From positions 62,001 to 126,000 of the IMG/VR virus record IMGVR_UViG_3300038415_000014: 64,000 bases of DNA. One strand, written 5' to 3'. Of this stretch, positions 9,840-59,819 are shown in pieces. Source of the DNA: a virus. Made by a program: the position numbers and the translations under genes. Position 1 is the stretch's first letter. Each line of letters opens with the position of its first letter. Under the pieces are notes generated by a model. The model was not told the DNA's origin, ran no database searches, and saw only the letters and a program-made list of their open reading frames with translations.

Positions 9840-10568
9840 TCAAACTCCAATTCCATTTAGGTTAGACTGAATCCCTTGGATCACAAACTTGAAGAACGAA
9901 GGGTCCTTTGCCCCTTTCTTGGAGTTGCATGAACTACAAGAGGGGACGACATTCTCTTTTGAGTGGGGTCCACCCTTAGAGATTGGGATAACATGATCCA
10001 TGGTCAGCTTAGCGTCAGACCTTCCACAGTAGGCGCAACTATGGTTGAACTCTGATAGAACGGACAACCATTCTTCAGTTGTAAGAGTATTCGTAACTTT
10101 AGCTAGATCAGCTCGCCTCTTCTGCCACCAACCAGGATTTCTGAGCCTCCAAGATTTGACCTTCTCAGTCACCGCTTCTGGGTTCTTACTCTCCCAACGT
10201 GAGCAGATAACCCTCCACTCTTCTGAGTGACTTTTAACCCAACTCAAGAAGTTCTTGTAGGCTCTCTCCCTGTTGGCGTAATACCAAGCTGACGCTCGGT
10301 CTCTAGCAGCCTGTTTCTGATCTTCTGTTCTAGAAGTAACCGCCCAAGACTCCCTTTTCTTACGATTCAAGTCAGTTCTACGAGGGGTTGCATACAGTTT
10401 CTGCAAGTCAGCGCAGCACTTCCTACATGCCGCCTTCTTTCCAAACTTACCTCTTGCTTGATCACCAAATTCCCCGAGCATCTTGAGGTCTCCGCACTCT
10501 GAACATACCTTTCCACCCCCAAGCGGTACTTGAGTCTCGGCAGCTTGGAGAATGGTTCTCTGGAGCAT
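9840..10568 (-). CDS. HNH homing endonuclease
   Basis: 242 residues. An N-terminal treble-clef-like element (CSECG ... CRKCC) is followed by a basic helical middle rich in Trp and Arg, and a C-terminal HNH nuclease near residues 180-228: CAYCG, then MDHVIPISKGG, ENVVPSCSSCNSKKG. The His of MDH, the Asn of KEN and the paired Cys-x-x-Cys zinc ligands are all present. The ATG overlaps the upstream stop by one base (TAATG) and has no ribosome site of its own, suggesting translational coupling. HNH genes of this type are selfish free-standing elements between phage structural genes; it lies directly upstream of the tail tube gene. Confidence 0.9.
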   Translation of the reverse strand: MLQRTILQAAETQVPLGGGKVCSECGDLKMLGEFGDQARGKFGKKAACRKCCADLQKLYATPRRTDLNRKKRESWAVTSRTEDQKQAARDRASAWYYANRERAYKNFLSWVKSHSEEWRVICSRWESKNPEAVTEKVKSWRLRNPGWWQKRRADLAKVTNTLTTEEWLSVLSEFNHSCAYCGRSDAKLTMDHVIPISKGGPHSKENVVPSCSSCNSKKGAKDPSFFKFVIQGIQSNLNGIGV

Positions 10569-34752: not shown

Positions 34753-35871
34753 TTACAGAGCGTACTTGTTGGAGATCATGTCGTTAACTTCGACAATGAC
34801 CCAAGTCTTGCCAGTGGTCGGGACGGTCGGAATGGTTGCCGTCGCGGCAATGAGCGAAGCCGGGACAACAATCGAGGTGTCCGAGATAGTACCACCAGCA
34901 GCCAAGATTTGAGCACTAGTGATACGTCGACCACCAAGACCACTGATGATCACGGTTGAGGTATAGAGACCATACCCTAGCAAGCCACCTGAGGCGCCAT
35001 TGATGGTAAGGCTACCTGAGAGGGACAGGCTGGTGATGACCGGAGTCAAGACCGTGTAGAGACTGGTTGATGTCGAGGAGGCATTCACATCTTGAACGAC
35101 CTGGATGGCTTGCCCTGCTGACGCCGGAGGGTGATTGAGGTCACCTCTTGAGTCAGGACAGAAGCTCGAAGACAGATATCCGTGAATAGAACCAGCCAGG
35201 AAGCTCTTCTTGACCGAGTCAGTCTCCACGAAGTGGTAACCGAGCATGTTCTGAAGGGCAACTACCTGAGCGTTGGAGGCGCCAGCTAGCCCTATGATAG
35301 CCTTGATGGCCGTCGCAGAGATGTCTATTGTGGGGACCGGAGTACCCCCGGCGTAACTGGGAACCGTGGCCGTGATCAGAGTAGCTGCAACCTCCACCGC
35401 CACACTGACTGAAATGGTACCATTGAAGTCAGTTGTTGGGGTGACAGCCAGGGTGGCTGTGGTGGAAGCAGCAAATGTAACTGAAGTGGTTCCGGAGATA
35501 GCACCAGTAGTCCCACCACCAAAGGTAGCCGTCACGGTACCAGCAGTACTGCCAGTGATTGTGATGGTTAGGGTGTAGACCTGAAGAGCTACAGCGGCCA
35601 AGGTGTTGGTTAGAGCTGTAGTATTCCCAGTATTGTGGGTAAAGGAGTTGTAAGTCCCTGTCCACCCAGTAGCGGTCCACCCAGTCGACTTGAGGAGCTG
35701 GTTGAGCCCCTGAGCATCCAAGTACTTCTGAATGTTGGTTCGGTTCGGACGAGAGACATACCTGGTCTGTCCCTTAGGAGACTCAGTTGTCGGATTGTTC
35801 TGCGAAGTCGATTCGACGTCCGAAATGAAAAGAGGGTTCTTGATATCGCTTCGGATAACTACTAGAAACAT
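34753..35871 (-). CDS. Virion protein with carbohydrate-binding-like and IPT-like domains
   Basis: 372 residues, ATG with a strong AGGAGG site. Residues 61-160 (TGWTATGWTGTYNSFTHNTG onwards) form a beta module also found in the tail sheath (residues 825-930 there); the GW, FTH and GNT-x-ALTN signature resembles CBM-type jelly rolls. Residues 160-250 are helical. Residues about 265-372 hold an IPT/TIG-like fold (SLTINGASGGLLGYGLYTS, DTSIVVPASLIA) akin to the repeats in the next upstream structural protein. A surface-exposed, possibly glycan-binding or glycosylated role is inferred. Confidence 0.78.
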   Translation of the reverse strand: MFLVVIRSDIKNPLFISDVESTSQNNPTTESPKGQTRYVSRPNRTNIQKYLDAQGLNQLLKSTGWTATGWTGTYNSFTHNTGNTTALTNTLAAVALQVYTLTITITGSTAGTVTATFGGGTTGAISGTTSVTFAASTTATLAVTPTTDFNGTISVSVAVEVAATLITATVPSYAGGTPVPTIDISATAIKAIIGLAGASNAQVVALQNMLGYHFVETDSVKKSFLAGSIHGYLSSSFCPDSRGDLNHPPASAGQAIQVVQDVNASSTSTSLYTVLTPVITSLSLSGSLTINGASGGLLGYGLYTSTVIISGLGGRRITSAQILAAGGTISDTSIVVPASLIAATATIPTVPTTGKTWVIVEVNDMISNKYAL

Positions 35872-35886
35872 TGAGTCCTCCTGAAC

Positions 35887-36252
35887 TTAGACCGGCTGCA
35901 AATGGCCACGAGCTTGATCAATCTTGAGGTAGCGTAGGATGTTGCCGTAAACGGTATAGAAGTCCGCTACCGCTTGGCCAAAGGCAAGCTGATTAGCCAA
36001 GCGAACATACTTTGCACGTCGAAGGATGAACTCAAGATGACGTACACTCTTCAGGTAAAAGGCGGCCCTCTCAAGAGTCTTGAACTCTTCTTCGGAAGCC
36101 TTCACGAGTGAGTAGCGCTGGTTCATATCCTTGACGAGCTTCTGAGTTTGAATAGGTAAAAACAGATGCTTGGGACGCCAAACGTTGTCAATCCTCTGGA
36201 AATCTCCTGTGGTCTCCTGATCCAGGATCTTGATGAGATTTGGCGTCCCCAC
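35887..36252 (-). CDS. Small helical hypothetical protein
   Basis: 121 residues, GTG start immediately after an in-frame TAA; the ribosome site is weak and the frame begins 8 bp past the upstream stop, so reinitiation is likely. It is almost entirely helical (LERAAFYLKSVRHLEFILRR, then LANQLAFGQAVADFYTVYGN). It sits between two beta-rich surface proteins, so an assembly or chaperone role is possible. No family recognised. Confidence 0.68.
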   Translation of the reverse strand: MGTPNLIKILDQETTGDFQRIDNVWRPKHLFLPIQTQKLVKDMNQRYSLVKASEEEFKTLERAAFYLKSVRHLEFILRRAKYVRLANQLAFGQAVADFYTVYGNILRYLKIDQARGHLQPV

Positions 36253-36259
36253 TTAGCAC

Positions 36260-37798
36260 TCATGACGAAGTTAGAGCCACAGCGGGAGTTGACGTGTGTG
36301 TGTTCGCTGTAACTGCTGCTGAATCGACGGTTATGGCGATCCCAGACGGAAGGGCCGCAACTGGAATGACAATCGAGGTTGCAGTGAACGTGGTGAAGCT
36401 GGTAGCCGCTACAGTACCCGCATGAGTCCCAGTGATAGCTACTGTGGTCAGATTCGGCAGAACCGAGAGGAACCCTGTACCGGTCAGGGTCAGGATTCCA
36501 GCAGCAAAGACTGCCTTGCTGACCGTAGGAGTTGCTAGGGTTGCAGTCATCGTGTAGGCTGCAGTCGTCATAGCATCAGCTGTAACCGCCACAGTGCTCG
36601 TCCCGATGGTGAGAACCGGTAGTAACGAAGCCGGGACAACAATCGAAGTAGCACCAACGCTTCCACCAGCTGTTGTGATCTGAGAAGAAGTCAGGGTTAC
36701 AGTAGTCGCCCCAACGACGGTCACCGAGGTCACATCCGGAGCCAAGGAGAGGAAATTGGTACCACCGATGGTTAGGTTGCCTGTACCACCGGCATCGACT
36801 ACGCCGGTCGCGATAGTCGGAGTCGCAGAGGTGATCAGAACAGCTGTAGAGGTCGTAGAATCAGCTGTAACCGATACTGTTGTGGTTCCGACTGCAATAG
36901 TCGGGAGCAAACTCGCCGGGATGACAATCGAGGTGTCGGCAAAACTTCCTCCACCTGCAGCAGCAATAGCAGCAGCCGTGAGAACCGTCGATCCTACTGT
37001 CACCGTTGACAGATCCGGAGCCAGCGAAACGAAGTGAGTACCAGTAAGGGTCAAAACTCCGGTACTGACTACAATCACCGCGGTAGTGATGGTCGGAGCC
37101 GCAGAGGTGATCAGAGCCGTAGCTGACTTGTTGTTTGCATTGACCGTCACAGTTGTCGTTCTGACCGCAATGGTTGGAAGTAAACCAACCGGAATGACAA
37201 TCGAGGTTGCAGTAAAAGTTCCTCCTGCCCCTGTGATGGTAGCCGAGGAGAGCGTTGTGGTACCAATCTTCACCGAGGATACATCCGGGGATACCGAGAG
37301 GAATGTAGTACCAGTGATGGTCAGAGCTTCTGGACTAACCACAATAACTGCTGAGCTAATTACCGGAGCTACTGTAAGGGTAGGGTCTATTGTAGTCACG
37401 GTGATGAGGGGATAGGTTGCATGCCCAGCAATTGTACTAGCTAAAGCTGCAATGACTCCATGATCCTGACTCAATAGAACCCTGTCCGAAAGGTTCACAT
37501 CAATGTACCCAGGAACTGTGGTGCTATGAACCCCACCGGGTAGGATCTCCCATAGTGGGATGTAACACTTTTGCTTCGGATAGTTAACTTCAGGGAGAGT
37601 ACTGGAGTCACGCCCTGCAGTACTACCATCTCTTCGATAACTGGCTGGGGCCAACTTACCGCCCGCGACTAGTACAGGGCTGCCATTGACCCTAGCCCTA
37701 ACCAGCCCACATCTTGCAGATTTGTTGGGGAGTCCATCGTCAATATCACTGACGAGGATAGAACCTGAAATAGTCTGGTTATGGATGAGCCTCAGCAT
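36260..37798 (-). CDS. Virion surface protein with four IPT/TIG-like repeats
   Basis: 512 residues, ATG with AGGAG site. The first 140 residues are a distinct domain (PGYIDVNLSDRVLLSQDHGV). Residues about 145-510 are four tandem units of roughly 90, each built as LTITGTTFLSVSPDVSSV, then TATSIVIPVGLLPTI and TTTVTVNANN; copies 2-4 differ in detail but keep LTLTGT and TSIV[IV]P. These are Ig-like IPT/TIG folds as in bacterial adhesins and phage surface proteins. Thr and Ser are abundant, making it a fitting acceptor for the glycosyltransferase encoded divergently next door. The acceptor role is inference. Confidence 0.82.
   Translation of the reverse strand: MLRLIHNQTISGSILVSDIDDGLPNKSARCGLVRARVNGSPVLVAGGKLAPASYRRDGSTAGRDSSTLPEVNYPKQKCYIPLWEILPGGVHSTTVPGYIDVNLSDRVLLSQDHGVIAALASTIAGHATYPLITVTTIDPTLTVAPVISSAVIVVSPEALTITGTTFLSVSPDVSSVKIGTTTLSSATITGAGGTFTATSIVIPVGLLPTIAVRTTTVTVNANNKSATALITSAAPTITTAVIVVSTGVLTLTGTHFVSLAPDLSTVTVGSTVLTAAAIAAAGGGSFADTSIVIPASLLPTIAVGTTTVSVTADSTTSTAVLITSATPTIATGVVDAGGTGNLTIGGTNFLSLAPDVTSVTVVGATTVTLTSSQITTAGGSVGATSIVVPASLLPVLTIGTSTVAVTADAMTTAAYTMTATLATPTVSKAVFAAGILTLTGTGFLSVLPNLTTVAITGTHAGTVAATSFTTFTATSIVIPVAALPSGIAITVDSAAVTANTHTSTPAVALTSS
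36263..37366 (-). repeat. Four tandem about 270-bp coding repeats (IPT-like modules)
   Basis: The four Ig-like units of the 512-residue protein are visible at DNA level as diverged direct repeats, for example the recurring coding of TSIVIP followed by LLPTIAV. Divergence shows old duplication under selection rather than recent expansion. Confidence 0.7.
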
Positions 37799-38092
37799 CT
37801 AACAGCTCCTAGCTAGTGAGTGGACAGGGTTCAATGGGATAAGCCCTATAAGAAGATCAACCGGGGACCAACTCGCCGGAAGGAGTTCAGTCAAGCTGTC
37901 CTTGGTCATACTGCTGTAGGGCATAAAGAAAAACTCAAGCCAACGCTGGGGTGCAATAAGTGACCAGTTTTCACTAGGTCACGGGTCCTCAGATACTCTA
38001 GTGGCCTGTCGGTGTTTGCAGGTCTACGGGCCTATTTAGAAAGATAGCCATCCTTCTAGCTGATAATAGGTGACTTAGGTGTAGGAGTAGCC
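37799..38092. promoter_or_regulatory. Divergent intergenic region
   Basis: A 294-bp gap between the minus-strand IPT-repeat gene and the plus-strand glycosyltransferase, the only divergent junction here; both transcription units must start in or near it. It has a 6-bp hairpin (GTGACC/GGTCAC, 37960-37982), a GATAAT that could be a -10 box (38061-38066) without a convincing -35, and an AGGAG ribosome site 5 nt before the ATG at 38093. No gene is seen in it. Confidence 0.5.
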
Positions 38093-41000
38093 ATGACTAT
38101 TGCTGGCATCAGAGTCCTCACCATCGGAAAGACATTCAGTCTACCCCACAATGTCGCGCATATCGAAGGTACAACCCACCTACTCGAAACAATCGCCACC
38201 TTTAGACCAGATGTCATAGTCACCCCCGAGTATGTACCAGGAGCGCTCACTCAGGCTTGCCACGAGTTGAGGAAACGGTGGATCCATGTTCCGCCTGACG
38301 TGTCCGCTGAGGAGCTTTGTTCACTAGTCGAGGGATGCTACTCGTTCAACCTTTGGACTGAGAATCAATTCGCAAAAGATCACCCGATGGTCTCTGTATA
38401 TACCCCTACTCATGACTCAGGAGACTACCTGCAGGATACATTCCAGTCGCTGCGAGGTCAGACCTATGCCAACTGGGAATGGGTTGTCGTAGATGACCAC
38501 TCCTCAGACAAGACCTGGGCCAGGCTCCAAGAGTTCGCAGCCCAGGATTACCGAGTTCGACCATTCCAAAGTGGTATGCACCTAGGTAAAATAGGTGCAC
38601 TCAAAGACCTGACTACCAGACTCTGCAGGGGAAAGTACCTTGTTGAACTAGACCACGACGATATGCTTACAGAAACAGCTTTGGATGAGGTAAAGAATGC
38701 CTTCGAAGCTCACCCTGATGTTGGTATGGTTTACACAAATAGTGCTTCGTTCTATGAGAACGGGAACCCTCAACGATTCTCAGGATCACCATGGGATGAT
38801 CCCAATAGGTACCGCGAGGTTGAGTACCACGGGCGAAAGTACTTGGAGTGCAGCAACCCGAATATTTATGATCGATTTGGACCACATTTCACTCAGGTAT
38901 TCGGTTGGTTCCTCACAGTAGGCCCCCACCACATCCGGGCGTTTCGAGCAGACACCTTCCGCCAGCTGGGAGGCTACAACCCAGAGCTACCTATCGCGGA
39001 TGACTGGGACCTGTATGCCAGGTTCTTCCTAGAGTCTAAGTGCTTCCACATAGACAAGCTCCTGTACTTGTATCGGTACCGAGATGGTTTTGGCAATGTT
39101 ACCTTCCAACGCCTCCAGTCCATTCAAGACCACTTGGCCCTAGGTCGAAACCACTACGTTGAAAGATTCAGGAGGAAGAACGAGGAGCTACTGGCTAGCC
39201 AAACCCCTGTCTTCGTGGTCAACGACCCAACACCAAAACCTTGCCCAGATGAGAGCCCATCCGCCAGTATCTCATTCGTTGTTCTAGATGCCACTGGCAA
39301 GGATAACGCGGTTGACTGCCTGAAGAGCCTGAAGCTCTATGCCCCTGATGCAGAGATTATCCTAGTCGAGAATGGTTGTGATTCAAAAGCTCGAAAAGAG
39401 GCTCATACTGCTCTGACAAGCTCTCATAACCTTGGGTTCGGAGCTGGATGCAACTTAGGTGCTAGTGCGGCCACCCGTCCGTACTTGTGCTTCATTAATG
39501 ATGATGCAGCCCTCGTGGACGCGGAGACTATCCCAAAGCTCCTAGTTGCTGCCAAGATGAATGCCATTGCTGGGGCCTACTCGGACCGGGCAAAGCCTCC
39601 TCAAGGAGACTGGTCACCTGAGTCAGCACCAAAGGCGGACCAAGTTCTACCCATGGTAGCCGGGCTCTGCATGGTGATGTCCAAGAGCCTGTTTGACTCT
39701 CTCGGAGGGTTTGACCCACGCTTCTTGACCTGGGAGGATGATGACCTCTGTGTCAGGGCTAGACGCCGAGGGGCGAGCTGTGTAGCTGTCGGAGGAACCT
39801 TCGTTCATCACAAGGGTCACCAGACCTTCGAGGCCATGAAGCTCGACCATGTGGCGGTCGAGGACAAGAACCATAGGCTATTCAACCTAAAGCACCCAAA
39901 GATCAAGATCATTGCCATTGCCAAGAATGAGGAGAACTGCATTGTCGAGTTCTTCAAGCAGTTCGAGTCAATCACACACGATTGGTACATGCTCGACACG
40001 GGCTCGACAGACAGAACAATAGAACTGGCTGATTCTATTGGAGTTAGAGTGGAATCTGCTCCGTTCGTGGACTTTGCCACTACCCGCAACCAAGCTTTGA
40101 ATACCTTTGACCCAAAGGAGTGTTGGACTGACTCAGAAGGTAGCTGGGTTATCATGCTCGACCCTGACGAGCGCTTGGACAAGCAAACCATCGCTGCCAT
40201 CCCTGAACTGATCTTCAACAGGCGTATCGTCTCGCAGAGCGCGTTTGATACTTATCTTGCACCCCTGACCGCTGTATACCCAGACGGAAGTAGAAAAGAA
40301 TTTGTAGCCAAGCCATTCCTTTTCAAGAACAACAGCACCTCCAAATGGGTTTTCAAGGTTCATGAGAAGTGGGTAACTGAGGACCATTGCTCGTGTCATG
40401 GTCAATGCGCGATAGTCACCAACGCACTCATCGAGCATCGGATTGAGTTCCACACAGGCAAGCATCGCGATGGGGCCGAAGACCTGTACTCCAGGTTGAT
40501 GTCCGAGGAGCCCTACTTCCAAGACCCAGAGTACAAGGCCAAGATGCGTGAGGATCATCCCATACTCGACTATGATCACACGGATGACCCTCGGATAGCC
40601 AAGATCCAAGCGGGTCCACTGGTCAGCGTGGTAATCCCAACGTACAAGAGAACAGACTTACTAAGAAAAGCCGTACTCTCTGCCCTAACTCAATCGTACA
40701 AGACGCTGGAAGTCATTATTGTTGGGGATCACTGTCCAGAGTTGGATTCGGCTGCGTTCGACGTGAGTCCCTACTCAGAAGAGCCACGAGTCAGGGTCAT
40801 CAATCTGGCAGAGAACCATGGGGCTGGTGGAGCAGAGCCCAGGAACATAGCCATCAACCTAGCTACCGGGCAGTACATCGCCTATCTGGATGATGACAAC
40901 ACCTGGGCGAAAGACCACGTGAGCAACTTGCTGACTACCATCTTGGCGGAGAAGTCTGTCTGGGGTTGGTCGTCGATGATGGTCAATGGGGTCGACCTGA

Positions 41001-42061
41001 ACTTCGATCGGCTTGAGCGTGGTAAGATTGACACCTCGTGTGTCATTCACCACAAGAGCCTAATCCAGAAGCATGGGGTTTGGAAGCCAAGAACCGAGGC
41101 AAACTATTGGCATGACTACGAGTTGTTCTCACGCTGGAGAAAAGAGCCTCAGACGGTAACTGGATACCCGTCAGTCAGCTATAATGCGAGTGCTTCTGGG
41201 CAAGGAGCCTTCCTGGCTAGCCTGACATCTTCAGACCAAGTCACTGACCTACCATTTGAACCTTCTGCTGCGATACCCCCTGAACCAAACCTACTGACCA
41301 TCGGCATCCTGAGTCTGGAATCCCGTGCTGATATGCTCAGCAAGTTGCTACAGGAGCTTGAGCGCCAACAAGCGACTCTACCCTCCTCTAACTCCGTAAA
41401 GATCGTACTTGAGGTGGACAATGGGGATGCCACTGTTGGGGGCAAGCGTCAGAAGATCATAAACGAGTGCAGTACTGAGTACTTGTGTTTTGTAGATGAT
41501 GATGACCTGGTAGAACCAACCTACCTGCAGTCAGTCCTACGGGCTCTCAAGGGCAAACCTGACTGTGTCACATTCAAGGGCATAGTCACCACTGACAACC
41601 ATAACCCCGAGCAGTTCCGCTTGTCCTTGCACTACCCAGCAGGAGCTTGGTCCAAGGATGCTCAGGGGACTCACATGAGGACCCCGAACCATCTGTGTCC
41701 AATGAAGATTGAGATAATGAGGAAAGTGACCTACCGAGACATTACCTCATATGAGGATGCTCTCTGGGGCATGTGGATCCACCCACTCCTGCATAGTCAA
41801 TGCCATATTGACGAGGTCTTGTACCACTACCGATACAGCCCAACCGGGTCAGAAGCAGCCAAGAGAGCACCGAAGCTCATTCCAGGGAAGCTGTTTGAGC
41901 TAGGGGCAGACGGGCTCTTCTATGACTTGAATGGAAAGTCCTACGCCCCCGAGAAGGCTCTTGAGATACTCAACGACCTGATTGGTGCGACCAGACCCCA
42001 GGATGTGACTGCCTTCACACTACGATACCCTGTTCTGTTCAAAGAACTACCAAAGCCCTAG
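38093..42061 (+). CDS. Five-domain GT-A glycosyltransferase
   Basis: 1322 residues, the only plus-strand gene. After a 95-residue N-terminal domain, five GT-A units follow, each with a nucleotide-sugar strand and an acidic metal motif: unit 1 at about 98 (VSVYTPTHD ... LDHDD at 187); unit 2 at about 392 (FVVLDATG ... FINDDA, then TWEDDDLC); unit 3 at about 602 (KIIAIAKNEEN ... MLDPDE); unit 4 at about 841 (VSVVIPTYKR ... YLDDDN); unit 5 at about 1065 (TIGILSLESR ... FVDDDD). Units 1, 2 and 4 look like GT2. All five keep DxD-type residues, so all may be active. They should transfer sugars in steps, most plausibly onto the flanking Ser/Thr/Asn-rich virion fibres. The 3' end overlaps the convergent gene by 4 bp. 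Confidence 0.93.
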   Translation: MTIAGIRVLTIGKTFSLPHNVAHIEGTTHLLETIATFRPDVIVTPEYVPGALTQACHELRKRWIHVPPDVSAEELCSLVEGCYSFNLWTENQFAKDHPMVSVYTPTHDSGDYLQDTFQSLRGQTYANWEWVVVDDHSSDKTWARLQEFAAQDYRVRPFQSGMHLGKIGALKDLTTRLCRGKYLVELDHDDMLTETALDEVKNAFEAHPDVGMVYTNSASFYENGNPQRFSGSPWDDPNRYREVEYHGRKYLECSNPNIYDRFGPHFTQVFGWFLTVGPHHIRAFRADTFRQLGGYNPELPIADDWDLYARFFLESKCFHIDKLLYLYRYRDGFGNVTFQRLQSIQDHLALGRNHYVERFRRKNEELLASQTPVFVVNDPTPKPCPDESPSASISFVVLDATGKDNAVDCLKSLKLYAPDAEIILVENGCDSKARKEAHTALTSSHNLGFGAGCNLGASAATRPYLCFINDDAALVDAETIPKLLVAAKMNAIAGAYSDRAKPPQGDWSPESAPKADQVLPMVAGLCMVMSKSLFDSLGGFDPRFLTWEDDDLCVRARRRGASCVAVGGTFVHHKGHQTFEAMKLDHVAVEDKNHRLFNLKHPKIKIIAIAKNEENCIVEFFKQFESITHDWYMLDTGSTDRTIELADSIGVRVESAPFVDFATTRNQALNTFDPKECWTDSEGSWVIMLDPDERLDKQTIAAIPELIFNRRIVSQSAFDTYLAPLTAVYPDGSRKEFVAKPFLFKNNSTSKWVFKVHEKWVTEDHCSCHGQCAIVTNALIEHRIEFHTGKHRDGAEDLYSRLMSEEPYFQDPEYKAKMREDHPILDYDHTDDPRIAKIQAGPLVSVVIPTYKRTDLLRKAVLSALTQSYKTLEVIIVGDHCPELDSAAFDVSPYSEEPRVRVINLAENHGAGGAEPRNIAINLATGQYIAYLDDDNTWAKDHVSNLLTTILAEKSVWGWSSMMVNGVDLNFDRLERGKIDTSCVIHHKSLIQKHGVWKPRTEANYWHDYELFSRWRKEPQTVTGYPSVSYNASASGQGAFLASLTSSDQVTDLPFEPSAAIPPEPNLLTIGILSLESRADMLSKLLQELERQQATLPSSNSVKIVLEVDNGDATVGGKRQKIINECSTEYLCFVDDDDLVEPTYLQSVLRALKGKPDCVTFKGIVTTDNHNPEQFRLSLHYPAGAWSKDAQGTHMRTPNHLCPMKIEIMRKVTYRDITSYEDALWGMWIHPLLHSQCHIDEVLYHYRYSPTGSEAAKRAPKLIPGKLFELGADGLFYDLNGKSYAPEKALEILNDLIGATRPQDVTAFTLRYPVLFKELPKP

Positions 42062-42732
42062 AAGTCACACCCAAAAAGTACAGAGTTACCTGGTCCAGCA
42101 CCCCCGTACGGAGCTATGGATGCTATTACCTCAGCGGCAAGTGTGAAGTTTGGACTACTGTTCCAACCAGCATTATTAATGCCAGGGGTTGTAGTAGTAG
42201 TTAGACCGCCTGCACCGGCTATGTTGCTTGATGAGGGGTTGGTTAGCATTGAAGTGTAAATAGGTGTCAATGTAGTACCTGGAGTCACACCTACAAAGTC
42301 AAAGAGCCAAGCATTAGCAGCAATAGTGGTGATAGTCGTAGCTATGCTAGCAGCGGAGGCCGCGGTAACTGATTTAGTAACTCCTGGAGCTGTTTGAGCA
42401 GCTCCAAGTAGCGAGATAGAACCCCCTCCAGTATAAGTTGTGGACCCAGACGAAGTTACGATGATGTTATAGGTTCCAGAGGCTGGAAGTTGTGACTCTA
42501 GTGCATAATAGATTGCTACTAGCAGACCAGTGCTACTTAGTACAGAAACAGCTAAGCTTAGGGTTACACTATTATTGTAAGTTACCTGATTCAAGGTTGG
42601 ACCTGAACCAGCCATAACAGTACCAACCAAAAGGATGCGATTGTTGCCAGACGCGCCAATGGTATGACTAAAAGTCACCTGGTTGCTTGTAACAGCAGAA
42701 CCAGCACTAGAATAATCGTAGCTTAGGGCCAA
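42058..42732 (-). CDS. Beta-rich fibre or adhesin-like protein
   Basis: 224 residues, TTG start at 42732, 4 bp after the upstream stop; no ATG lies near. The sequence begins SYDYSSAGSAVTSNQVTFSH, then RILLVGTVMAG, LNQVTYNNSVTLSLA and a YNIIVTSSG strand. This is the pattern of a small jelly-roll or Ig-like family found in phage tail-fibre gene groups. It is rich in Ser, Thr and Ala, with little charge, and ends NSVLFGCDF. It converges on the glycosyltransferase gene. A surface location is inferred. Confidence 0.75.
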   Translation of the reverse strand: MALSYDYSSAGSAVTSNQVTFSHTIGASGNNRILLVGTVMAGSGPTLNQVTYNNSVTLSLAVSVLSSTGLLVAIYYALESQLPASGTYNIIVTSSGSTTYTGGGSISLLGAAQTAPGVTKSVTAASAASIATTITTIAANAWLFDFVGVTPGTTLTPIYTSMLTNPSSSNIAGAGGLTTTTTPGINNAGWNSSPNFTLAAEVIASIAPYGGAGPGNSVLFGCDF

Positions 42733-42736
42733 AGAA

Positions 42737-43330
42737 TTAACCTATCTTAGCAATGCACAACCTAGCCCGACGACAGTGTACAGTCACGGCCCCGACATTC
42801 TTGTATTGCAATAGTAGGGTTACCGTGGCCCCATCGACCACAGTAAAAGGTACCACTACACTGAATACATGCGGAACCGCTTGTTCCCAAGAGTCTTCAT
42901 ACAAGGCAGAACCATTGTATGATAGCAAAGCATCACTGAAGGTGCTGGCTACGAGTGTATCCAAGAAATGCTCACAATCCAAAGTTCCAAGATAGGTACC
43001 AGCAGGCAAGGGGCCTGCATTGAGGGTTAGTTTAGTCACATAAGCACTACCAGAGGTAGTGGTGTCCGAGGTATCCGTTGCCTGCACCAACGTGGAGCCG
43101 AATACAGCACCTGTATGAGCGGCCACGACCGCATTCAGGGCGGTGATATCAGAAGCCGACAACTCACCAGTAAACGTGAGAACGACTGCGGATCCAGTTA
43201 GCTGAGGTTGGCCTGCTAATGGAACACTCAAACTTGCCGCTACGATCTGAGCAGCTAGAACTGGTGAGTTCACTACGTGATTGGGAAACTCTGTGAGTTG
43301 GTAGGTTTCGGTAGAAGTCAGTGAAGGCAT
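42737..43330 (-). CDS. Fibre-associated beta protein
   Basis: 197 residues, ATG with AGGAGA site. A helical N-terminal stretch (FPNHVVNSPVLAAQIVAA) precedes strands, and a C-terminal sandwich (VFSVVVPFTVVDGATVTLLL) ends in CRRARLCIAKIG. It lies between the collagen-like fibre and another beta protein in a fibre operon. I infer a fibre accessory or tip protein. No family is recognised firmly. Confidence 0.7.
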   Translation of the reverse strand: MPSLTSTETYQLTEFPNHVVNSPVLAAQIVAASLSVPLAGQPQLTGSAVVLTFTGELSASDITALNAVVAAHTGAVFGSTLVQATDTSDTTTSGSAYVTKLTLNAGPLPAGTYLGTLDCEHFLDTLVASTFSDALLSYNGSALYEDSWEQAVPHVFSVVVPFTVVDGATVTLLLQYKNVGAVTVHCRRARLCIAKIG

Positions 43331-43339
43331 GTGATTCTC

Positions 43340-44413
43340 CTAGGGTGCAAATGCTTTAGAGATAACTGCGTAGATCTGGGACCCGTTGTAGTAGATAGCC
43401 ACTATATCCTGAGACCCATTGGGTGTGCTTAAGACTAAATTAGTAGCCTTGCCTCCAGGAGCCCATACAGCTGTTGGCCATGTTAGGATTCGGCTACCTG
43501 TACCGTCTTGTACGACACGCAAAATGTAGTTACCTACCCCGGGGAAGGTGATCCCTGTGATAGTAACGCTCCCTCCGAGCAAGACCATCTGCTTTTGACC
43601 ATTCGAGAAGGAGATGGCAAAGTTAGACGTGACAGCTGTACCACTGTTGATTTGATACTCTGCCGAAAACGCGACATATACCTCACCTGTTGCTGTTGTC
43701 GGGAAGTTGCCTTGGAAGCCTTGGTTGCCTTGCCACCCTTGAGCGCCTTGCCATCCCTGATTGCCTTGGTTACCCTGGTTTCCTTGCCAACCTTGCCAAC
43801 CTTGATTGCCTTGGACGCCCTGGACTCCGGTTGATCCAATAGCGCCCTGGAAGCCTTGGTTGCCTTGATTACCTTGTCGGCCCTGCTGGCCTTGGACGCC
43901 CTGGATCCCTTGGACTCCCTGGGTACCTTGCCATCCTTGGTTGCCTTGATTCCCTTGCCAGCCCTGAGATCCGACAAGGCCCTGGTTGCCTTGCCATCCT
44001 TGAACGCCTTGACCTCCGACGTTCCCTTGGTTGCCCTGCCAGCCCTGGGGGCCCTGCCAACCTTGATTACCTTGGTTGCCTTGCCAGCCCTGAGGGCCCT
44101 GATCCCCCAGCGCACCTTGCCAACCTTGGTTGCCTTGATTACCCTGGTTGCCTTGCCAACCCTGAGGGCCCTGGACTCCCGTCCCCTGCCATCCTTGGTT
44201 GCCTTGGTTGCCTTGATTCCCTTGCCAACCCTGAGCACCCTGAGGGCCCTGGATCCCGGTTCCCTGCCAACCTTGATTACCTTGGTTGCCGGTTGATCCG
44301 ACATCTCCCTGATACCCCTGATTGCCTTGAGTTCCGGTTAATCCGGTGAGACCTTGGTTGCCTTGCCAACCTTGGTTGCCTTGGTCTCCTTTCAGGTTGT
44401 TGACAAGATACAC
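43340..44413 (-). CDS. Collagen-like fibre protein rich in Trp and Gln
   Basis: 357 residues, GTG start with a GGGAGG site. Residues 9-237 are about 75 Gly-X-Y triplets, dominated by GNQ and GWQ (GNQGWQGNQG); two places read GT-GIQ and GT-GVQ, each one residue short. Proline is almost absent apart from GPQ. The last 120 residues are a beta-rich cap (FPGVGNYILRVVQDGTGSR, LTWPTAVW) of the kind that ends phage fibre trimers. It should form a triple-helical fibre. Tryptophan at X positions is unusual for collagen and may serve stacking or glycan contact. Confidence 0.88.
   Translation of the reverse strand: MYLVNNLKGDQGNQGWQGNQGLTGLTGTQGNQGYQGDVGSTGNQGNQGWQGTGIQGPQGAQGWQGNQGNQGNQGWQGTGVQGPQGWQGNQGNQGNQGWQGALGDQGPQGWQGNQGNQGWQGPQGWQGNQGNVGGQGVQGWQGNQGLVGSQGWQGNQGNQGWQGTQGVQGIQGVQGQQGRQGNQGNQGFQGAIGSTGVQGVQGNQGWQGWQGNQGNQGNQGWQGAQGWQGNQGFQGNFPTTATGEVYVAFSAEYQINSGTAVTSNFAISFSNGQKQMVLLGGSVTITGITFPGVGNYILRVVQDGTGSRILTWPTAVWAPGGKATNLVLSTPNGSQDIVAIYYNGSQIYAVISKAFAP
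43712..44389 (-). repeat. Coding minisatellite of the collagen-like fibre
   Basis: A 9- and 18-bp periodic array encoding GNQ and GWQ triplets. On the plus strand it reads as repeated CCTTGGTTGCCTTGCCA units. Such arrays expand and contract by slippage, so fibre length may vary between isolates. Confidence 0.8.
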
Positions 44414-44446: not shown

Positions 44447-45124
44447 TTAGCGTGGGTTTGCGTATGTGAACTGGCAGGAGAACGCGCAGGTAGCTCCCGA
44501 ACCTCGAATCCAGAAAGAGGAGACAATACCTTCGAATCCGATACTCTCTTGGCTTGATGCTTGACCTGGAACAACAATTTCAGGGCCACCTTCCTGAAAA
44601 GCCACATACAAGTTCACACTAGTACTCAGATTCCTAACTCTGAAGTTAGACATCTGCCGCGGGAGGTCAATCTGTAGCGAATCGGTGATCGAAGATCCAG
44701 ACGGAGCTGTAGAGTTAAACCCAGCTTGTTCATTACCTACAAACGGCGGAAGGACTAGCGTAGGTGCGCTTGGGGCTGGGTTACTAGCAAACTCACTGCC
44801 ACTTGCGTCAACATAGACTAGCTTCAACCAGAAGTGACTTGTATCTGGTATTGGGTGAGCAAGAAGGCTTGACGACGGCTTTAGGAGAAGCTGTACGTTA
44901 TTACCAGGTTGAATAGGGTTCTGAGGTCCGGCGACTGCTGGATCAACAAATCCAGTATTAGTAACGGTAATTATCTCAGCTGGGGCTGTGAAGTTGGGAT
45001 CATCGTCTGTATCAGTATAAAAGCGATACTTCAGTACGCCGGTCTTTTGAAAGTCCAACAAGGGCGTTACTAGATGAATGAAGCCTGGCTTGCGTCGTAG
45101 GATTGAGAAGAGGCGTCCGCTCAT
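44447..45124 (-). CDS. Virion structural protein, beta-rich
   Basis: 225 residues; ATG overlaps the upstream stop (ATGA), with an AGGTGG site. It opens SGRLFSILRRKPGFIHLVTP, followed by strands LKYRFYTDTDDDPNF and, after a Pro-rich linker, a second sandwich (DSLQIDLPRQMSNFRVRNLS). It sits next to the collagen-like fibre and is probably part of the same appendage. No family named. Confidence 0.7.
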   Translation of the reverse strand: MSGRLFSILRRKPGFIHLVTPLLDFQKTGVLKYRFYTDTDDDPNFTAPAEIITVTNTGFVDPAVAGPQNPIQPGNNVQLLLKPSSSLLAHPIPDTSHFWLKLVYVDASGSEFASNPAPSAPTLVLPPFVGNEQAGFNSTAPSGSSITDSLQIDLPRQMSNFRVRNLSTSVNLYVAFQEGGPEIVVPGQASSQESIGFEGIVSSFWIRGSGATCAFSCQFTYANPR

Positions 45125-46411: not shown

Positions 46412-47077
46412 TCACTTCGCGAAGTCGGTTACAGGCCTCAGCATATTTATCTTTTCAGCGGCATGCATCACAGCCTCTGATGCTGGCCAAGGTCCGTTTT
46501 CAGGCTCCAACTGACCTAGAGCCGTAGACATACTGTGGAGCGCTGAGAAGAAGTACCTCTTTGGGTTTTTGGGGTTCTTTCTAGCAAGCTTCAAAGAGGC
46601 AATCGCGGTATCAACCTCTAATTGATACCGTTCGAGCAACTCCTTATCAAGAGCAGCAGACTTGAAGTTGTCCTTGTGCTCGTCGTGCATCTCCTTCCAC
46701 TTCTTGGAGTCTGACTCACCCATATTCTGAGTCGGGTCCGCTGGCTTCCCCTCCTCAAACCGACTCCGACGAGCTTCTTCCGTAGCGAAGATGTTCCAAC
46801 GTGCATTGTTCATGAGCTTACCTTTGAGGGATCGAGGAACACTTTTGGGGATCTTGTGGGATGCTTCGGTGAGTTTACTTGCAACCTCGGTGAGACCAAG
46901 GTTTTGGAACATCATGCCTAGGGTTTGGACCGCGGTTGCCGTGTTCAAGAAGACCATCTGCCAACTATCAGACTTTGCAGAACTAGCAGCATCATCAAGC
47001 ATCCTAATAGCGTGCTTGAGGTTATCTTGGACCAGCTCAGACTTATCTGGGCTGACTGCGGCTTCGACAACGGTCAT
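46412..47077 (-). CDS. Helical hypothetical protein
   Basis: 221 residues. The ATG overlaps the stop of the GIY-YIG gene (ATGA). Helices dominate (AIRMLDDAASSAKSD, MMFQNLGLTEVASKLTEAS), with a central NNARWNIFATEEARRSR segment. No catalytic motif. It was probably adjacent to the 297-residue gene before the endonuclease entered. Confidence 0.7.
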   Translation of the reverse strand: MTVVEAAVSPDKSELVQDNLKHAIRMLDDAASSAKSDSWQMVFLNTATAVQTLGMMFQNLGLTEVASKLTEASHKIPKSVPRSLKGKLMNNARWNIFATEEARRSRFEEGKPADPTQNMGESDSKKWKEMHDEHKDNFKSAALDKELLERYQLEVDTAIASLKLARKNPKNPKRYFFSALHSMSTALGQLEPENGPWPASEAVMHAAEKINMLRPVTDFAK

Positions 47078-47946
47078 GAGACCCCCAGAGTAGCTTGAGC
47101 CTTTCTGGCTTTCTTTTCAGCTTGGTATCTTCGATTCTGATCACGACGTTTGGCTCGTTGGAGTCGAACTTTGAGTGGTAAACTGGCATCCCTTGCAACA
47201 GCTCTTGCTGATGCAATGGCTCGCCCCTTACGCAGCCCCTCAAGGTTTGCCCTCTGCCATTCAGGGTCTTCATGCTGGATACGAAGTTGTTCTAGGTTAG
47301 CCTTACGCCACTCAGGATCAGATAGCTTTCTCTGAGCTGCTTTTGAACATGCTTCGATGTAATCAAGGTCTTCAGCCCTTCTCCTAGCTCCCTCAGCCAC
47401 GTTCTTGCGCCAGCTCAGGTCTGCAGTTCGTTTATGAACCCCTTCTCTTAGCTTCTCTTGACACTCAGGGTCTTCAGATCTTCTTCTAGCCGCCTCGACC
47501 ACATTCTTATGCCACTCAGGAGTTGCAGAACGCCTACGAGAGCCTTCTGAACATGCCCTATGCCAATTAGGGTCTGCCTTTCTCTTACTGGCTCCTCGCA
47601 TCAACTTATCACGAGCTTCTGGAACAGAAAAGTCAACACCCTCACCACCGTTAGTTAGGTTGTACCCGTTTGGTACAGTACAACTATGAGATGCAATCTG
47701 AGCAACTTCAAACTTCAACATCTCCTCGACTGTAGACGCGGTTTCAAGACACTCAATCTTGAAGTTGCTAGCTCCATACTTTCGAATAGCTCGATGAAGG
47801 GCTAGAGGAGGATTACTTTTCTTTGCTAGACTCAAGTGCTGAGCCCATCGATGCCTAATGGATACCCTGGTACAACCGACATACCTCTTCCCGTTCACGA
47901 GATTCGTGATTAGGTAGACATACCCAGTAAAAGCAGTGGAATCCAT
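47074..47946 (-). CDS. GIY-YIG homing endonuclease with seven 17-residue repeats
   Basis: 290 residues, ATG at 47946. The nuclease domain occupies residues 1-105: GYVYLITNLVNGKRYVG gives the GIY and YIG-equivalent strands, with Arg31/Arg33 and catalytic Glu80 (KFEVAQIASH). Residues 124-242 are seven exact-length 17-residue repeats of form [AE]DPxWxxxxxEGxRRRx, as in NUMOD3-type DNA-binding helices; each probably reads a few base pairs of the target. A basic tail follows. It is a free-standing selfish element, coupled to the next gene by an ATGA overlap. Confidence 0.9.
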   Translation of the reverse strand: MDSTAFTGYVYLITNLVNGKRYVGCTRVSIRHRWAQHLSLAKKSNPPLALHRAIRKYGASNFKIECLETASTVEEMLKFEVAQIASHSCTVPNGYNLTNGGEGVDFSVPEARDKLMRGASKRKADPNWHRACSEGSRRRSATPEWHKNVVEAARRRSEDPECQEKLREGVHKRTADLSWRKNVAEGARRRAEDLDYIEACSKAAQRKLSDPEWRKANLEQLRIQHEDPEWQRANLEGLRKGRAIASARAVARDASLPLKVRLQRAKRRDQNRRYQAEKKARKAQATLGVS

Positions 47947-51869: not shown

Positions 51870-52817
51870 TCATGGTTCTTTATCGCGCGAGGGGCGCCCA
51901 ACCACCCGCTCATGCTCGATACCGTGCTTCTTCAGGTGACGGTTGATAGTGGATGCACCTACCCCAGTTAGTTTGGCCATCCTTCGAATCGGTACTCCTT
52001 GGGAAGCCATCTGACGAAGAGGCTCCTCAGGAGCCTTCTCACGAACTTGATAGTGTGGACCTTGAAAACCGAAGTTCAACTTGTAGTGCATGAACTCAGG
52101 CATGTGAGGCTTGACCAAGGAAATGAAGAGATGGGCTTGGTCCTCGCCCTCGAAGATGAACTGACCTGTACTGCCTTGACCAGGAGCCCATCGAGGTTTG
52201 AGGCTGAACTTACGAAAAGTGGTCTGTGCAACCTCTCTACTTTCTGGCTTCATACCGAAAGTGATGACGGGCCACCATGCGGCTGATCCGTCATCCATGA
52301 ACCAAATAGCGAGGGCGATGGCATCAACCAAGTCAACCACCTGAGATTGAAGCTGCTTGGGTCCGGGTTCTGGGTAAAACAACTCATGCCATGGGAGCAT
52401 GGTTGCGTGCGAAACGGTCTCAAATCGCCACCCCTCGTACTCTTCATCCTGAAGAGTCCAAGTTACAGGACGCAACCCTAACTGAACCCAAGGTCCCCAC
52501 TCCTTGCTCTTCCACTCCAAGTACTCTCTCTGATCCTCAGCGTGGTTCTCCATGTAGCGAGCGACATGAGTGCTCTTTGAGATCCTGCCGTCCCCAAGCA
52601 TTGAACCAACAAGAACAGATCGAAGCCGACCTTCAATAGGTAACACATCGTGTCGCTCGGTTCGACATAGAGTCTCGATCCCCCAACGATGCCTCCATCG
52701 ACGGATATGCTTCAGTGGACACCCTACCTGAGCAGCAATCTCAGAGTCCGTAAGCTTGGTCTCCAAATACAGAGTTCGTAATTCAGCTTCAGAGATGGGG
52801 CATGGTACAAGCTTCAT
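51870..52817 (-). CDS. LAGLIDADG homing endonuclease
   Basis: 315 residues from the ATG at 52817; a TTG 11 codons upstream coincides with a -35 promoter box. An N-terminal helix-turn-helix (LTDSEIAAQVGCPLKHIRRW) precedes two LAGLIDADG helices: LVGSMLGDG (about 69) and LAIWFMDDG (about 169), each ending in the acidic catalytic residue. A second helix-turn-helix (IRRMAKLTGVGASTINRHL) ends the protein. Two DNA-binding domains flanking a LAGLIDADG pair fit an autonomous homing endonuclease. It lies between the capsid gene and the following head genes, with its own promoter and a closing hairpin. Confidence 0.9.
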   Translation of the reverse strand: MKLVPCPISEAELRTLYLETKLTDSEIAAQVGCPLKHIRRWRHRWGIETLCRTERHDVLPIEGRLRSVLVGSMLGDGRISKSTHVARYMENHAEDQREYLEWKSKEWGPWVQLGLRPVTWTLQDEEYEGWRFETVSHATMLPWHELFYPEPGPKQLQSQVVDLVDAIALAIWFMDDGSAAWWPVITFGMKPESREVAQTTFRKFSLKPRWAPGQGSTGQFIFEGEDQAHLFISLVKPHMPEFMHYKLNFGFQGPHYQVREKAPEEPLRQMASQGVPIRRMAKLTGVGASTINRHLKKHGIEHERVVGRPSRDKEP

Positions 52818-52822
52818 GCTGT

Positions 52823-52850
52823 ACAGTACCACTAAGCTTTGAGGTGTCAA
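52823..52850 (-). promoter_or_regulatory. Sigma70-like promoter giving a leaderless endonuclease message
   Basis: On the minus strand TTGACA (52845-52850), 16 bp, then TACTGT (52823-52828); the ATG begins 5 nt after the -10 box, at the expected start point, so the message would be leaderless. It lies just past the capsid-gene hairpin. Confidence 0.6.
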
Positions 52851-52935: not shown

Positions 52936-53808
52936 TCAGACTCGTGTTACCACTAGCCTGGTGAGGCCCCGGGGGTTGAAGGCCCCAATGCCCACGTTCT
53001 CAAAACAAGAGAAACCGATTGTCCGGGCTTTCGGGTCGTCAGCCGACAGAACCGTCAGCTCAGTTCGAACCGGGAACCTGCCGAAGTTCTCGGGCTCCGA
53101 AGCGATGTAAACGAATCCGGCGGGGACCAACCTGCTCGTGATGATCTGGGCTCCCCATAGGGTTGCCTGGAGACCAGTCTTGAGTAGGACAGCCTGGCTC
53201 TCGATGTCTAGGATGTCACGACCGAACTTGCGGATGTCCGCGTAGTCCGTCGCGTTCATGTAGATACGAGCGACCCTAAGGTCGTGACGCTCTACCTCAG
53301 CAAAGGCATCCGCGAGGATGCTTTGGCTGATTGGAGCCACGACGTTGAGGTCGGGGTTCGTCTGACCTGGGAGGGTGTCGAAGCCGGAAACCGCGATCGA
53401 GTCAAGGACTGCGAACACGCGCTCATCTTCAGCGGCCTGGATCTGGGCTTTCGCCAAGTCCTGAGCGCGTTCGATGAGATCGAATCGGCGTTCCTTGATC
53501 TGAGTGAGGGGGATCTCGGGGTTCGAGGCAAGCTCGAACAACGGGAAAATTACGCGACGAGGTTTCTGTATGGCAAGTATGTTCTCACCCTCTTCACCAA
53601 CCACGTAGGCGGTGACGTCGGGATCCTTGTCATAGATGGGGAGAGCCCCGTCTGGGAGTTGTTCAACTAAGAAGGTCTTGCGACCCACAGCTGTGTAGTC
53701 CCTGCGGAGACGCAGAGGCTGAATCATCGAGGCGGCAAGCTTGGCTCGGCCAGCTGCGGTCTTGATGTACTCGGAGATGATCTGCTGCTTGATGTCGTTG
53801 CTAACCAC
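52936..53808 (-). CDS. Major capsid protein (HK97-like fold)
   Basis: 290 residues, GTG start with an AAAGG site. It has the layout of HK97-fold capsids: a helical N-terminus, an E-loop-like region (LRLRRDYTAVGRKTFLVEQL), a central spine helix (DLIERAQDLAKAQIQAAEDERV), then ARIYMNATDYADIRKFG and the P-domain/A-domain strands ending IGAFNPRGLTRLVVTRV. Its position after protease, scaffold-like and decoration-like genes is decisive. It is short for the family. The N-terminus holds KTAAG and KLAAS, possible maturation cleavage sites. Confidence 0.85.
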   Translation of the reverse strand: MVSNDIKQQIISEYIKTAAGRAKLAASMIQPLRLRRDYTAVGRKTFLVEQLPDGALPIYDKDPDVTAYVVGEEGENILAIQKPRRVIFPLFELASNPEIPLTQIKERRFDLIERAQDLAKAQIQAAEDERVFAVLDSIAVSGFDTLPGQTNPDLNVVAPISQSILADAFAEVERHDLRVARIYMNATDYADIRKFGRDILDIESQAVLLKTGLQATLWGAQIITSRLVPAGFVYIASEPENFGRFPVRTELTVLSADDPKARTIGFSCFENVGIGAFNPRGLTRLVVTRV

Positions 53809-59088: not shown

Positions 59089-59819
59089 TAGGTGGCCCCT
59101 ACTCCAAACCATTGATGAGGTTCACCACTGGGTCCCAGCACAGAGACAGGATCAATGATGTACAAGCATTTGGGACAAGCGAAGACCTTATGGCGAGCGC
59201 CCTCCTGCATTCTGTAGGTAGAACGTCTCATCCGGTTCGAGCACTTGGGACATGAGGGGCGACCCGCCTTGATGTCCTGAGTCGTAGCTCGATACTGCCT
59301 GTTCTGGGATATCCAGTAAGCGGCAGACTTCTGAAGGTGACCTTGGATTCGAAGCTCACCCGCATTATGTGCAAACGAATAGAACTTGGCTACCTCTGTT
59401 CGGAGGGCATCATCATCCACGTTGGGGTAAAGAGCGCGATAGAGGTTATCATATGCGATGACCTCGCTCGCGCCCTTATGCCAATGTTTGGCCAGATCTA
59501 CATAGATCGAGGGCTGGAACTGCTTACTCCAGAGGGAATTTGAGGAAGCTTCCTTCCTAGCCCTCTCGATTTCTACAGTCATGTAGCTTTGATCAAACTG
59601 AGGAGGCAAGTACTTGATGAACTTAGGTGACACCCTAACAATGTCATCCGGAAACACGCGCTCGTTACCGAATGGCCATTGGACATCGAGTACGCCAAGA
59701 CCCTTGTGGACGGCGGTGACCGTACCAACATAGGGAGAGAGATCCCCATCGATGACGTCGATCTTTTGGACCACATCACCTTGGTTGAACTCTTTTGTTA
59801 GCTTCCAATAGTCGATCAT
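59088..59819 (-). CDS. Head-associated protein with KOW-like and zinc-ribbon domains
   Basis: 243 residues from the ATG at 59819, which overlaps the endonuclease stop (ATGA); a GTG six codons upstream is less likely. Residues about 15-60 read GDVVQKIDVIDG ... YVGTVTAVHKGLGVLDVQWP, an SH3/KOW-like barrel. A helical middle follows, and the C-terminus carries CPKCSNRMRR ... VFACPKCLYI, a four-Cys zinc ribbon. Both are nucleic-acid or protein contact modules. Its coupling to the protease gene suggests an assembly function. Confidence 0.72.
   Translation of the reverse strand: MIDYWKLTKEFNQGDVVQKIDVIDGDLSPYVGTVTAVHKGLGVLDVQWPFGNERVFPDDIVRVSPKFIKYLPPQFDQSYMTVEIERARKEASSNSLWSKQFQPSIYVDLAKHWHKGASEVIAYDNLYRALYPNVDDDALRTEVAKFYSFAHNAGELRIQGHLQKSAAYWISQNRQYRATTQDIKAGRPSCPKCSNRMRRSTYRMQEGARHKVFACPKCLYIIDPVSVLGPSGEPHQWFGVGAT

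Follow-up and report, generated by a model that had tools for sequence, protein, structure and literature searches.

A five-domain phage glycosyltransferase and its link to collagen-like fibre genes

What would a phage glycosylate with five glycosyltransferase (GT) domains joined in one polypeptide, encoded within its structural module but on the opposite strand? The question is raised by a window of 64,000 nt, which is positions 62001-126000 of the 183.5-kb IMG/VR record IMGVR_UViG_3300038415_000014. An open reading frame (ORF) at 38093-42061 on its + strand encodes a protein of 1322 amino acids with five GT2 domains of the GT-A type, called here the polydomain GT. We think that this protein is probably a soluble, modular 'assembly-line' enzyme, which, during infection, assembles a short oligosaccharide on the collagen-like fibre of the same phage. 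An original prediction, made from the DNA sequence alone, had already proposed a phage multi-domain GT aimed at the phage's own fibres. This part of the idea gained support from the linkage of the first GT domain (D1) to collagen-like genes in unrelated phages and bacteria, from the co-presence and co-absence of the two genes among relatives with near-identical capsid proteins, and from a cassette swap at the same locus. The other acceptors that it named gained no specific support.

A conserved protein with five GT domains

The ORF opens with an ATG, and Pfam matched PF00535 in five separate stretches of its product (E = 3.9e-65; 219 bits against a cut-off of 23.3). The original prediction had placed five GT domains with named acidic motifs in this protein, and we located all five motifs: LDHDD at residue 186 (D1), INDDA at 468 (D2, an NDD form), LDPDE at 689 (D3), LDDDN at 932 (D4), and VDDDD at 1134 (D5). 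The opposite orientation that it had noted is true with respect to all plausible large genes of the window, every other one of which reads on the - strand. A divergent intergenic region of 294 bp (37799-38092, assigned to neither strand) lies upstream of the GT gene and holds no sigma-70-like promoter. A sigma-70 promoter or a terminator as the cause of the inverted strand was rejected, since such signals were no commoner than chance.

Five domains in one chain also occur in the relatives L002 (76% identity), L003 (62%), and L004 (82%; a 512-kb record). The surrounding gene order and the inverted orientation of the GT are repeated in L004 and L002. Comparing the window with L004, we find a ratio of non-synonymous to synonymous substitution (dN/dS) of 0.03-0.10 in every GT domain; dS is high (1.1-2.0), so that the ratios are approximate, yet they are far from neutral. 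The key residues of D1, D3, and D4 are unchanged across the relatives, and an alignment of 11 sequences shows no variation at the metal and catalytic-region positions of D3 and D4. Judged by this codon comparison, each of the five domains is under purifying selection, and the polydomain GT is a real, conserved protein. A recent tandem duplication of one domain was rejected, as the domains share no more than about 30% identity over their longer aligned parts, and D2 and D3 match the others weakly.

The chain begins with an N-terminal domain of about 97 amino acids (38093-38383; this and all following domains on the + strand). It carries no Pfam name and is kept in all polydomain relatives as well as in the stand-alone form at L018. 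D1 (38384-39217) represents the family linked to collagen-like genes, and by sequence it lies nearest to chondroitin synthase and SpsA. D2 (39248-39898) is possibly rhamnosyltransferase-like, going by weak matches (TIGR01556 in L017), and a sequence search against the PDB gave no match for it. D3 (39899-40600), with a conserved VHEK, matches GmaR (PDB 22ao, E 3e-5), while the D3 of L017 matches the model of the peptide-glycosyltransferase SunS. GmaR is a flagellin glycosyltransferase that is also a gene regulator in Listeria. D4 (40610-41260) carries an invariant DDD and HD and has TuaG/PglI-like models as its nearest ones. D5 (41282-42058; phrog_14775) falls in a GT family that occurs in Mycobacterium and Gordonia phages, Che8 included. 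Its sequence match in the PDB was marginal, and in relatives it is missing or relocated.

The AlphaFold2 models of the two halves of the protein were of moderate quality (pLDDT 73 and 71). In Foldseek, both halves matched GT2 structures (E 3e-15 and 2e-17). The top matches were the two-domain heparosan and chondroitin synthases 8vh8 and 2z86, at 12-16% identity, followed by SpsA, TarP, RmlT, and WrtF. The fold prediction that the original prediction had proposed as a check was thus favourable as to the GT2 structures, at a moderate pLDDT, and the C-terminal half of D5 was not confidently modelled. The two best matches would suit an enzyme whose domains polymerise a repeat polysaccharide, as the two-domain hyaluronan, chondroitin, and heparosan synthases do, with the product later bound to the virion or the host. 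However, the match at this low identity reflects the common GT-A fold. Moreover, a two-sugar repeat would be a poorer fit than a defined oligosaccharide for five distinct domains with a D5 that is gained, lost, or moved. We consider polymerisation very improbable.

Phage GTs often modify DNA, and the protein also gave a weak Pfam match to PF20691 (TET-associated GT). Both points would agree with an enzyme that glycosylates hypermodified bases in the phage DNA. This match nevertheless stayed under the curated cut-off (16.3 bits against 27.5; E = 0.0096), no base-modifying gene was seen adjoining the GT gene, and the linkage is to fibre genes, not to replication genes. A role in DNA glycosylation is scarcely credible to us.

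Linkage of D1 to Gly-X-Gln collagen-like genes

The proposed acceptor is a fibre protein of 357 amino acids encoded at 43340-44413 (- strand), by the sole collagen gene of the 183.5-kb record. Its earlier label as a collagen-like fibre was borne out by PF01391 (E 1.2e-34). We looked for collagen-like ORFs, defined by an unbroken run of 15 or more G-X-Y triplets, in flanks of about 10 kb around D1 loci de-duplicated at 85% identity, using the same flank setting for the controls. Forty of the 72 D1 clusters (window included) had such an ORF, mostly within about 3 kb. Among the control loci, a collagen-like ORF was found at 0/80 for the capsid protein and at 1/80 for D5-like GTs, that one being L004 itself. 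The Fisher p value (3.5e-17) is to be read as a large difference and not literally, because the clusters lack phylogenetic independence. Ten D4 loci were positive, and 8/10 of these were polydomain contigs or the like.

The link was present in 11 of the 13 loci from bacterial or archaeal genomes (GTDB). As a fresh test, we used eight further Paenibacillaceae genomes, among 201, in which D1 was found. The distance from D1 to the collagen gene was less than 5 kb in two of the eight and 5-6 kb in five; the eighth D1 lay at a contig edge, so that all seven assessable genomes showed the link. Being found in bacterial genomes, the link is therefore not just a property of phage fibre regions. Unrelated phages and bacteria share a tight linkage between D1 and collagen-like genes.

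One Paenibacillaceae cluster (L410, 959-6215) combines the D1 GT with a second GT2, a DegT aminotransferase, a PglD-type acetyltransferase, and a methyltransferase, and a Gly-X-Gln collagen gene lies 5-6 kb off. By its predicted gene content, this is a sugar-making and sugar-attaching locus. Similar loci exist in other Paenibacillaceae, and together they represent an uncharacterised bacterial cluster.

The linked collagens also tend to share a repeat type. The Gly-X-Y region of the window fibre (residues 9-237; 43703-44389, - strand) has Gln at Y in 84% of its triplets (a fraction of 0.84, against 0.71 in L004). The median fraction of Gln at Y was 0.61 for viral and 0.67 for bacterial linked collagens, and the seven Paenibacillaceae ranged from 0.85 to 0.99. 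In comparison, unlinked collagens showed medians of 0.07 (same genomes) and 0.12 (Paenibacillaceae control collagens), with Mann-Whitney p values of 5e-5 and 3e-8. The Y residue of bacterial collagens is usually Thr (PMC8968730). A strict Gly-X-Gln rule for linked collagens was rejected on account of exceptions, which leaves an enrichment only. At L021, the repeat of the linked collagen is almost pure Gly-Ala-Gln without Ser or Thr at Y, and the acceptor there is therefore narrowed to Gln or to non-repeat domains.

A wider proposal can be built on these results. D1 would be an undescribed collagen-dedicated GT family of phages and of bacteria from several phyla, which recognises Gly-X-Gln triple-helix repeats and may glycosylate Gln. 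Phages would have built D1 into a shuffled multi-domain assembly line, with the outer domains swapped as cassettes together with the fibre stalk. We hold this wider proposal to be unlikely.

Domain shuffling, locus exchange and candidate acceptors

The domain order varies among 13 related viral loci, as assigned with profiles built in this analysis (L006 and L007 are interrupted by contig ends). The order of the window, N-D1-D2-D3-D4-D5, is repeated in L002, L003, and L004. D5 is absent from L005, L017, L030, L031, and L035 (N-D1-D2-D3-D4), and it follows D1 in L008 and L034 (N-D1-D5-D2-D3-D4). The 1650-residue protein of L032 (9947-14896) has the order N-D1-(GT, methyltransferase, GT)-D2-D3-D4, with apparently six GT domains and one methyltransferase. 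L033 shows N-D1-(unassigned)-D3-D4, and L018 is a stand-alone N-D1. L002 has an extra gene adjoining the GT, the C-terminal part of which is another D5-type domain. According to these profile assignments, the frame that stays constant consists of N-D1 and D3-D4, and the stretch between them and the C terminus are the exchangeable parts.

Two further occurrences were observed. The 735-kb phage record LR756501 encodes a stand-alone D1-type GT (L016, 7713-9170). The four-domain relative L017, with its Gly-X-Gln collagen gene, lies on a contig binned as Lokiarchaeota, which could be a virus or misbinned.

The structural module of the window includes genes for a portal protein (61437-63242, - strand; phrog_16240), a possible maturation protease (a weak match at 56164-59112), and the major capsid protein (52936-53808, - strand; phrog_2522). 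The capsid protein shares 84% identity with that of LR745208, a 485-kb uncultured phage, 47% with that of Tunturiibacter phage Tunturi_5, and 37% with that of Bacillus phage G, and the window therefore belongs to a jumbo-phage lineage. Across 80 fetched contigs, several of them 230-510 kb long, this capsid protein is 89-99% identical, and the genes adjacent to it vary widely.

In both the window record and the 512-kb relative, the polydomain GT is the sole PF00535 protein and its neighbour is the sole collagen gene. A collagen gene was present in 8/8 virus records with a polydomain GT that we searched. Among 17 records with a capsid protein at least 89% identical, which may be fragments, this kind of GT was found in 0/17 and any collagen in 3/17; the query that gave 0/17 does recover the gene in G000. 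The syntenic locus of a 416-kb relative (G574; L465, 12390-16574) has a Gly-X-Thr collagen with Thr at 0.93-0.98 of the Y positions. The space from the shared border gene to the fibre holds genes for a GT4, a sulfotransferase, two methyltransferases, and a protein of the GT2-GT2-TPR type, in which the second GT domain resembles D3. A sulfotransferase is unusual in a phage fibre locus. In a 437-kb relative (G571; L462, 1850-4195), the fibre has a C-terminal tip 66% identical to that of the window collagen protein on a right-handed beta-helix stalk, and the syntenic locus carries neither collagen nor GT. From these two loci we conclude that the stalk type and the glycan enzymes change together.

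This exchange also bears on a role at the host surface, in which the enzyme would remodel a surface polysaccharide for O-antigen-type conversion or superinfection exclusion. Such a role was proposed for GTs near fibres in the host-recognition regions of pelagimyophages (PMC7029224), and the GT2 similarity to TuaG, PglI, WcaA, and the heparosan and chondroitin synthases is in keeping with it. On the other hand, the GT is present with one fibre stalk type and is lost or replaced with the stalk in relatives with near-identical capsids. The gene also lies within the virion structural module, and a hydropathy scan of the polydomain GT found no transmembrane segment (highest 19-residue mean, 1.3). 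We judge host-surface remodelling to be decidedly unlikely.

Other virion proteins encoded nearby could be acceptors as well. A Ser/Thr-rich repeat protein (36260-37798, - strand; 29% S+T), divergent from the GT, forms the left border of the locus and is present in each relative whose stretch covers the place. Another Ser/Thr-rich protein (34753-35871, - strand; 27% S+T) is a conserved neighbour. Between the GT and the collagen gene lie a small Ser/Thr-rich protein (42058-42732, - strand; 28% S+T), which is convergent with the GT gene at a 4-bp overlap and was not found in the L004 locus, and a small structural-type protein of 197 amino acids (42737-43330, - strand), which has a homologue adjoining the fibre in G571 (L462) and a weak one in G574 (L465). 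A 225-residue protein (44447-45124, - strand) is the right border. Elsewhere amid the structural genes are three genes of the endonuclease type, each from a different family: HNH/endonuclease VII at 9840-10568, a homing endonuclease with a GIY-YIG-type match at 47074-47946, and LAGLIDADG/HNH at 51870-52850.

The Ser/Thr-rich fibre label of the original prediction agrees with the composition (22-29% S+T), and its 'IPT-repeat' and 'carbohydrate-binding-like' neighbours, the latter a possible reader of the glycan, lack Pfam and PHROGs support. From its list of acceptors, the collagen-like fibre alone has specific support, and the small neighbours at 42058-43330 are missing from the L004 locus. 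The enzyme might still glycosylate the Ser/Thr-rich proteins at 34753-37798, or the capsid, and the collagen linkage would then reflect a shared place in the fibre module. These Ser/Thr-rich neighbours are abundant potential O-glycan acceptors and both are kept in the GT-carrying L002 and L004; D5 also falls in a GT family present in actinobacteriophages, Che8 among them, and the capsids of such phages are reportedly glycosylated (PMC11256854). Yet the same border proteins stand in relatives without this GT (L460, L462-L465). The D1-collagen link occurs in bacterial chromosomes without an evident phage fibre module, and no link to collagen genes is seen for D5-like GTs, themselves phage genes as well. 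We find it rather unlikely that these other proteins are the true acceptors.

In the reading of the polydomain GT as an assembly line for the fibre, we infer catalysis by every domain, the role of the fibre as acceptor, the sugars and their order, and a glycan on the virion. Five GT-A domains would act on one acceptor, and each would have a separate site for metal and nucleotide. A protein-directed domain, D3 or D1, would start the chain and the other domains would extend it. We favour D3 as the initiator, since GmaR and SunS, to which it is related, modify proteins or peptides and the G574 cassette shares a D3-type part. D1 competes for this role, since its occurrence follows that of the collagen genes. 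Extension of the chain would fall to D2, D4, and D5, with D5 as its variable end. Two parts, D5 and the D1-D2 insert, may be exchangeable modules that alter the outer sugars between phages. The fibre would be glycosylated in the host cytoplasm before assembly.

Several points weigh against this assembly-line reading. The nucleotide sugars would be drawn from the host, a supply that we assume. The available stretch holds no collagen gene at 32/72 D1 clusters, many of them on short contigs, and three close-capsid relatives have collagen but not this GT. The linked collagens of L009, L011, L020, L097, and L099 are not of the Gly-X-Gln type. The 229-residue repeat region of the window fibre contains eight Thr and three Ser, with Thr at 5% of the Y positions, and a standard O-linkage within the repeat would therefore be sparse. 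D5 of L004 reads VDDND in place of VDDDD, and the C-terminal half of the window D5 falls below pLDDT 50 over residues 556-668 of its half-model. Finally, gene linkage is not proof that the fibre is the acceptor, and some other virion protein could carry the glycan.

Comparison with known systems

The original prediction spoke of a new type of virion glycosylation. This was too strong, as viral multidomain GTs, phage virion glycosylation, and a collagen-acting GT are already known. In the open-licence papers that we searched, we found no description of the five-domain phage enzyme, its shuffling, or its pairing with a Gly-X-Gln collagen, nor of a pairing between a phage collagen fibre and a glycosyltransferase. 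If our reading is right, one gene would suffice to place a defined oligosaccharide on the fibre of a phage, and the natural domain swaps would serve as assembly-line mutants. A function could be named for a widespread GT2 family of phages and bacteria now annotated just as 'glycosyltransferase', and it would be explained why GTs accompany phage collagen-like fibres. Roles of the fibre glycan in stability, host recognition, and fibre protection would become open to a direct test.

Luther and colleagues reportedly described, in 2011, a bifunctional Mimivirus enzyme that glycosylates the virus's own collagen via lysyl hydroxylation. The window collagen, in contrast, is Gln-rich and the window enzyme has no hydroxylase domain. 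K4CP (2z86) and PmHS2 (8vh8) likewise have tandem GT-A domains in one chain, but their two domains alternate to make a repeat polymer. GmaR resembles D3 and differs in having a single GT domain.

Several GT domains in one virus-encoded polypeptide are also present, by description, in A111/114R and A064R of chlorovirus PBCV-1. In A111/114R, each of three domains was assigned one sugar of the capsid-glycan core (PMC7826918). It differs in belonging to a eukaryotic algal virus, in having three domains against five, and in its acceptor, the major capsid protein. Mycobacteriophages such as Che8, where a member of the D5 family is found, encode GTs that place a glycan on capsid and tail proteins of the phage itself (Freeman et al. 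2023, as relayed in PMC11256854 and PMC12619734). These accounts mention no multi-domain chain, and the acceptors they give are the capsid and tail tube, with no collagen fibre.

The remaining comparison is with SgtA of Clostridioides difficile, whose gene adjoins bclA3 and which in vitro attaches GlcNAc to Thr residues of the collagen repeats (PMC7157674). The window shares with it a GT2-like gene that adjoins a collagen-like gene. SgtA-BclA3 differs, however, in its one GT domain with a TPR, its GPT repeats, and its place on a bacterial spore, whereas the Pfam result for the polydomain GT holds no TPR domain and its collagen has Gln at Y. The GT2-GT2-TPR gene beside the Gly-X-Thr collagen in G574 looks closer to SgtA-BclA3 than the window enzyme does. 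The action of SgtA on BclA3 repeats is the experimental precedent for the collagen glycosylation step.

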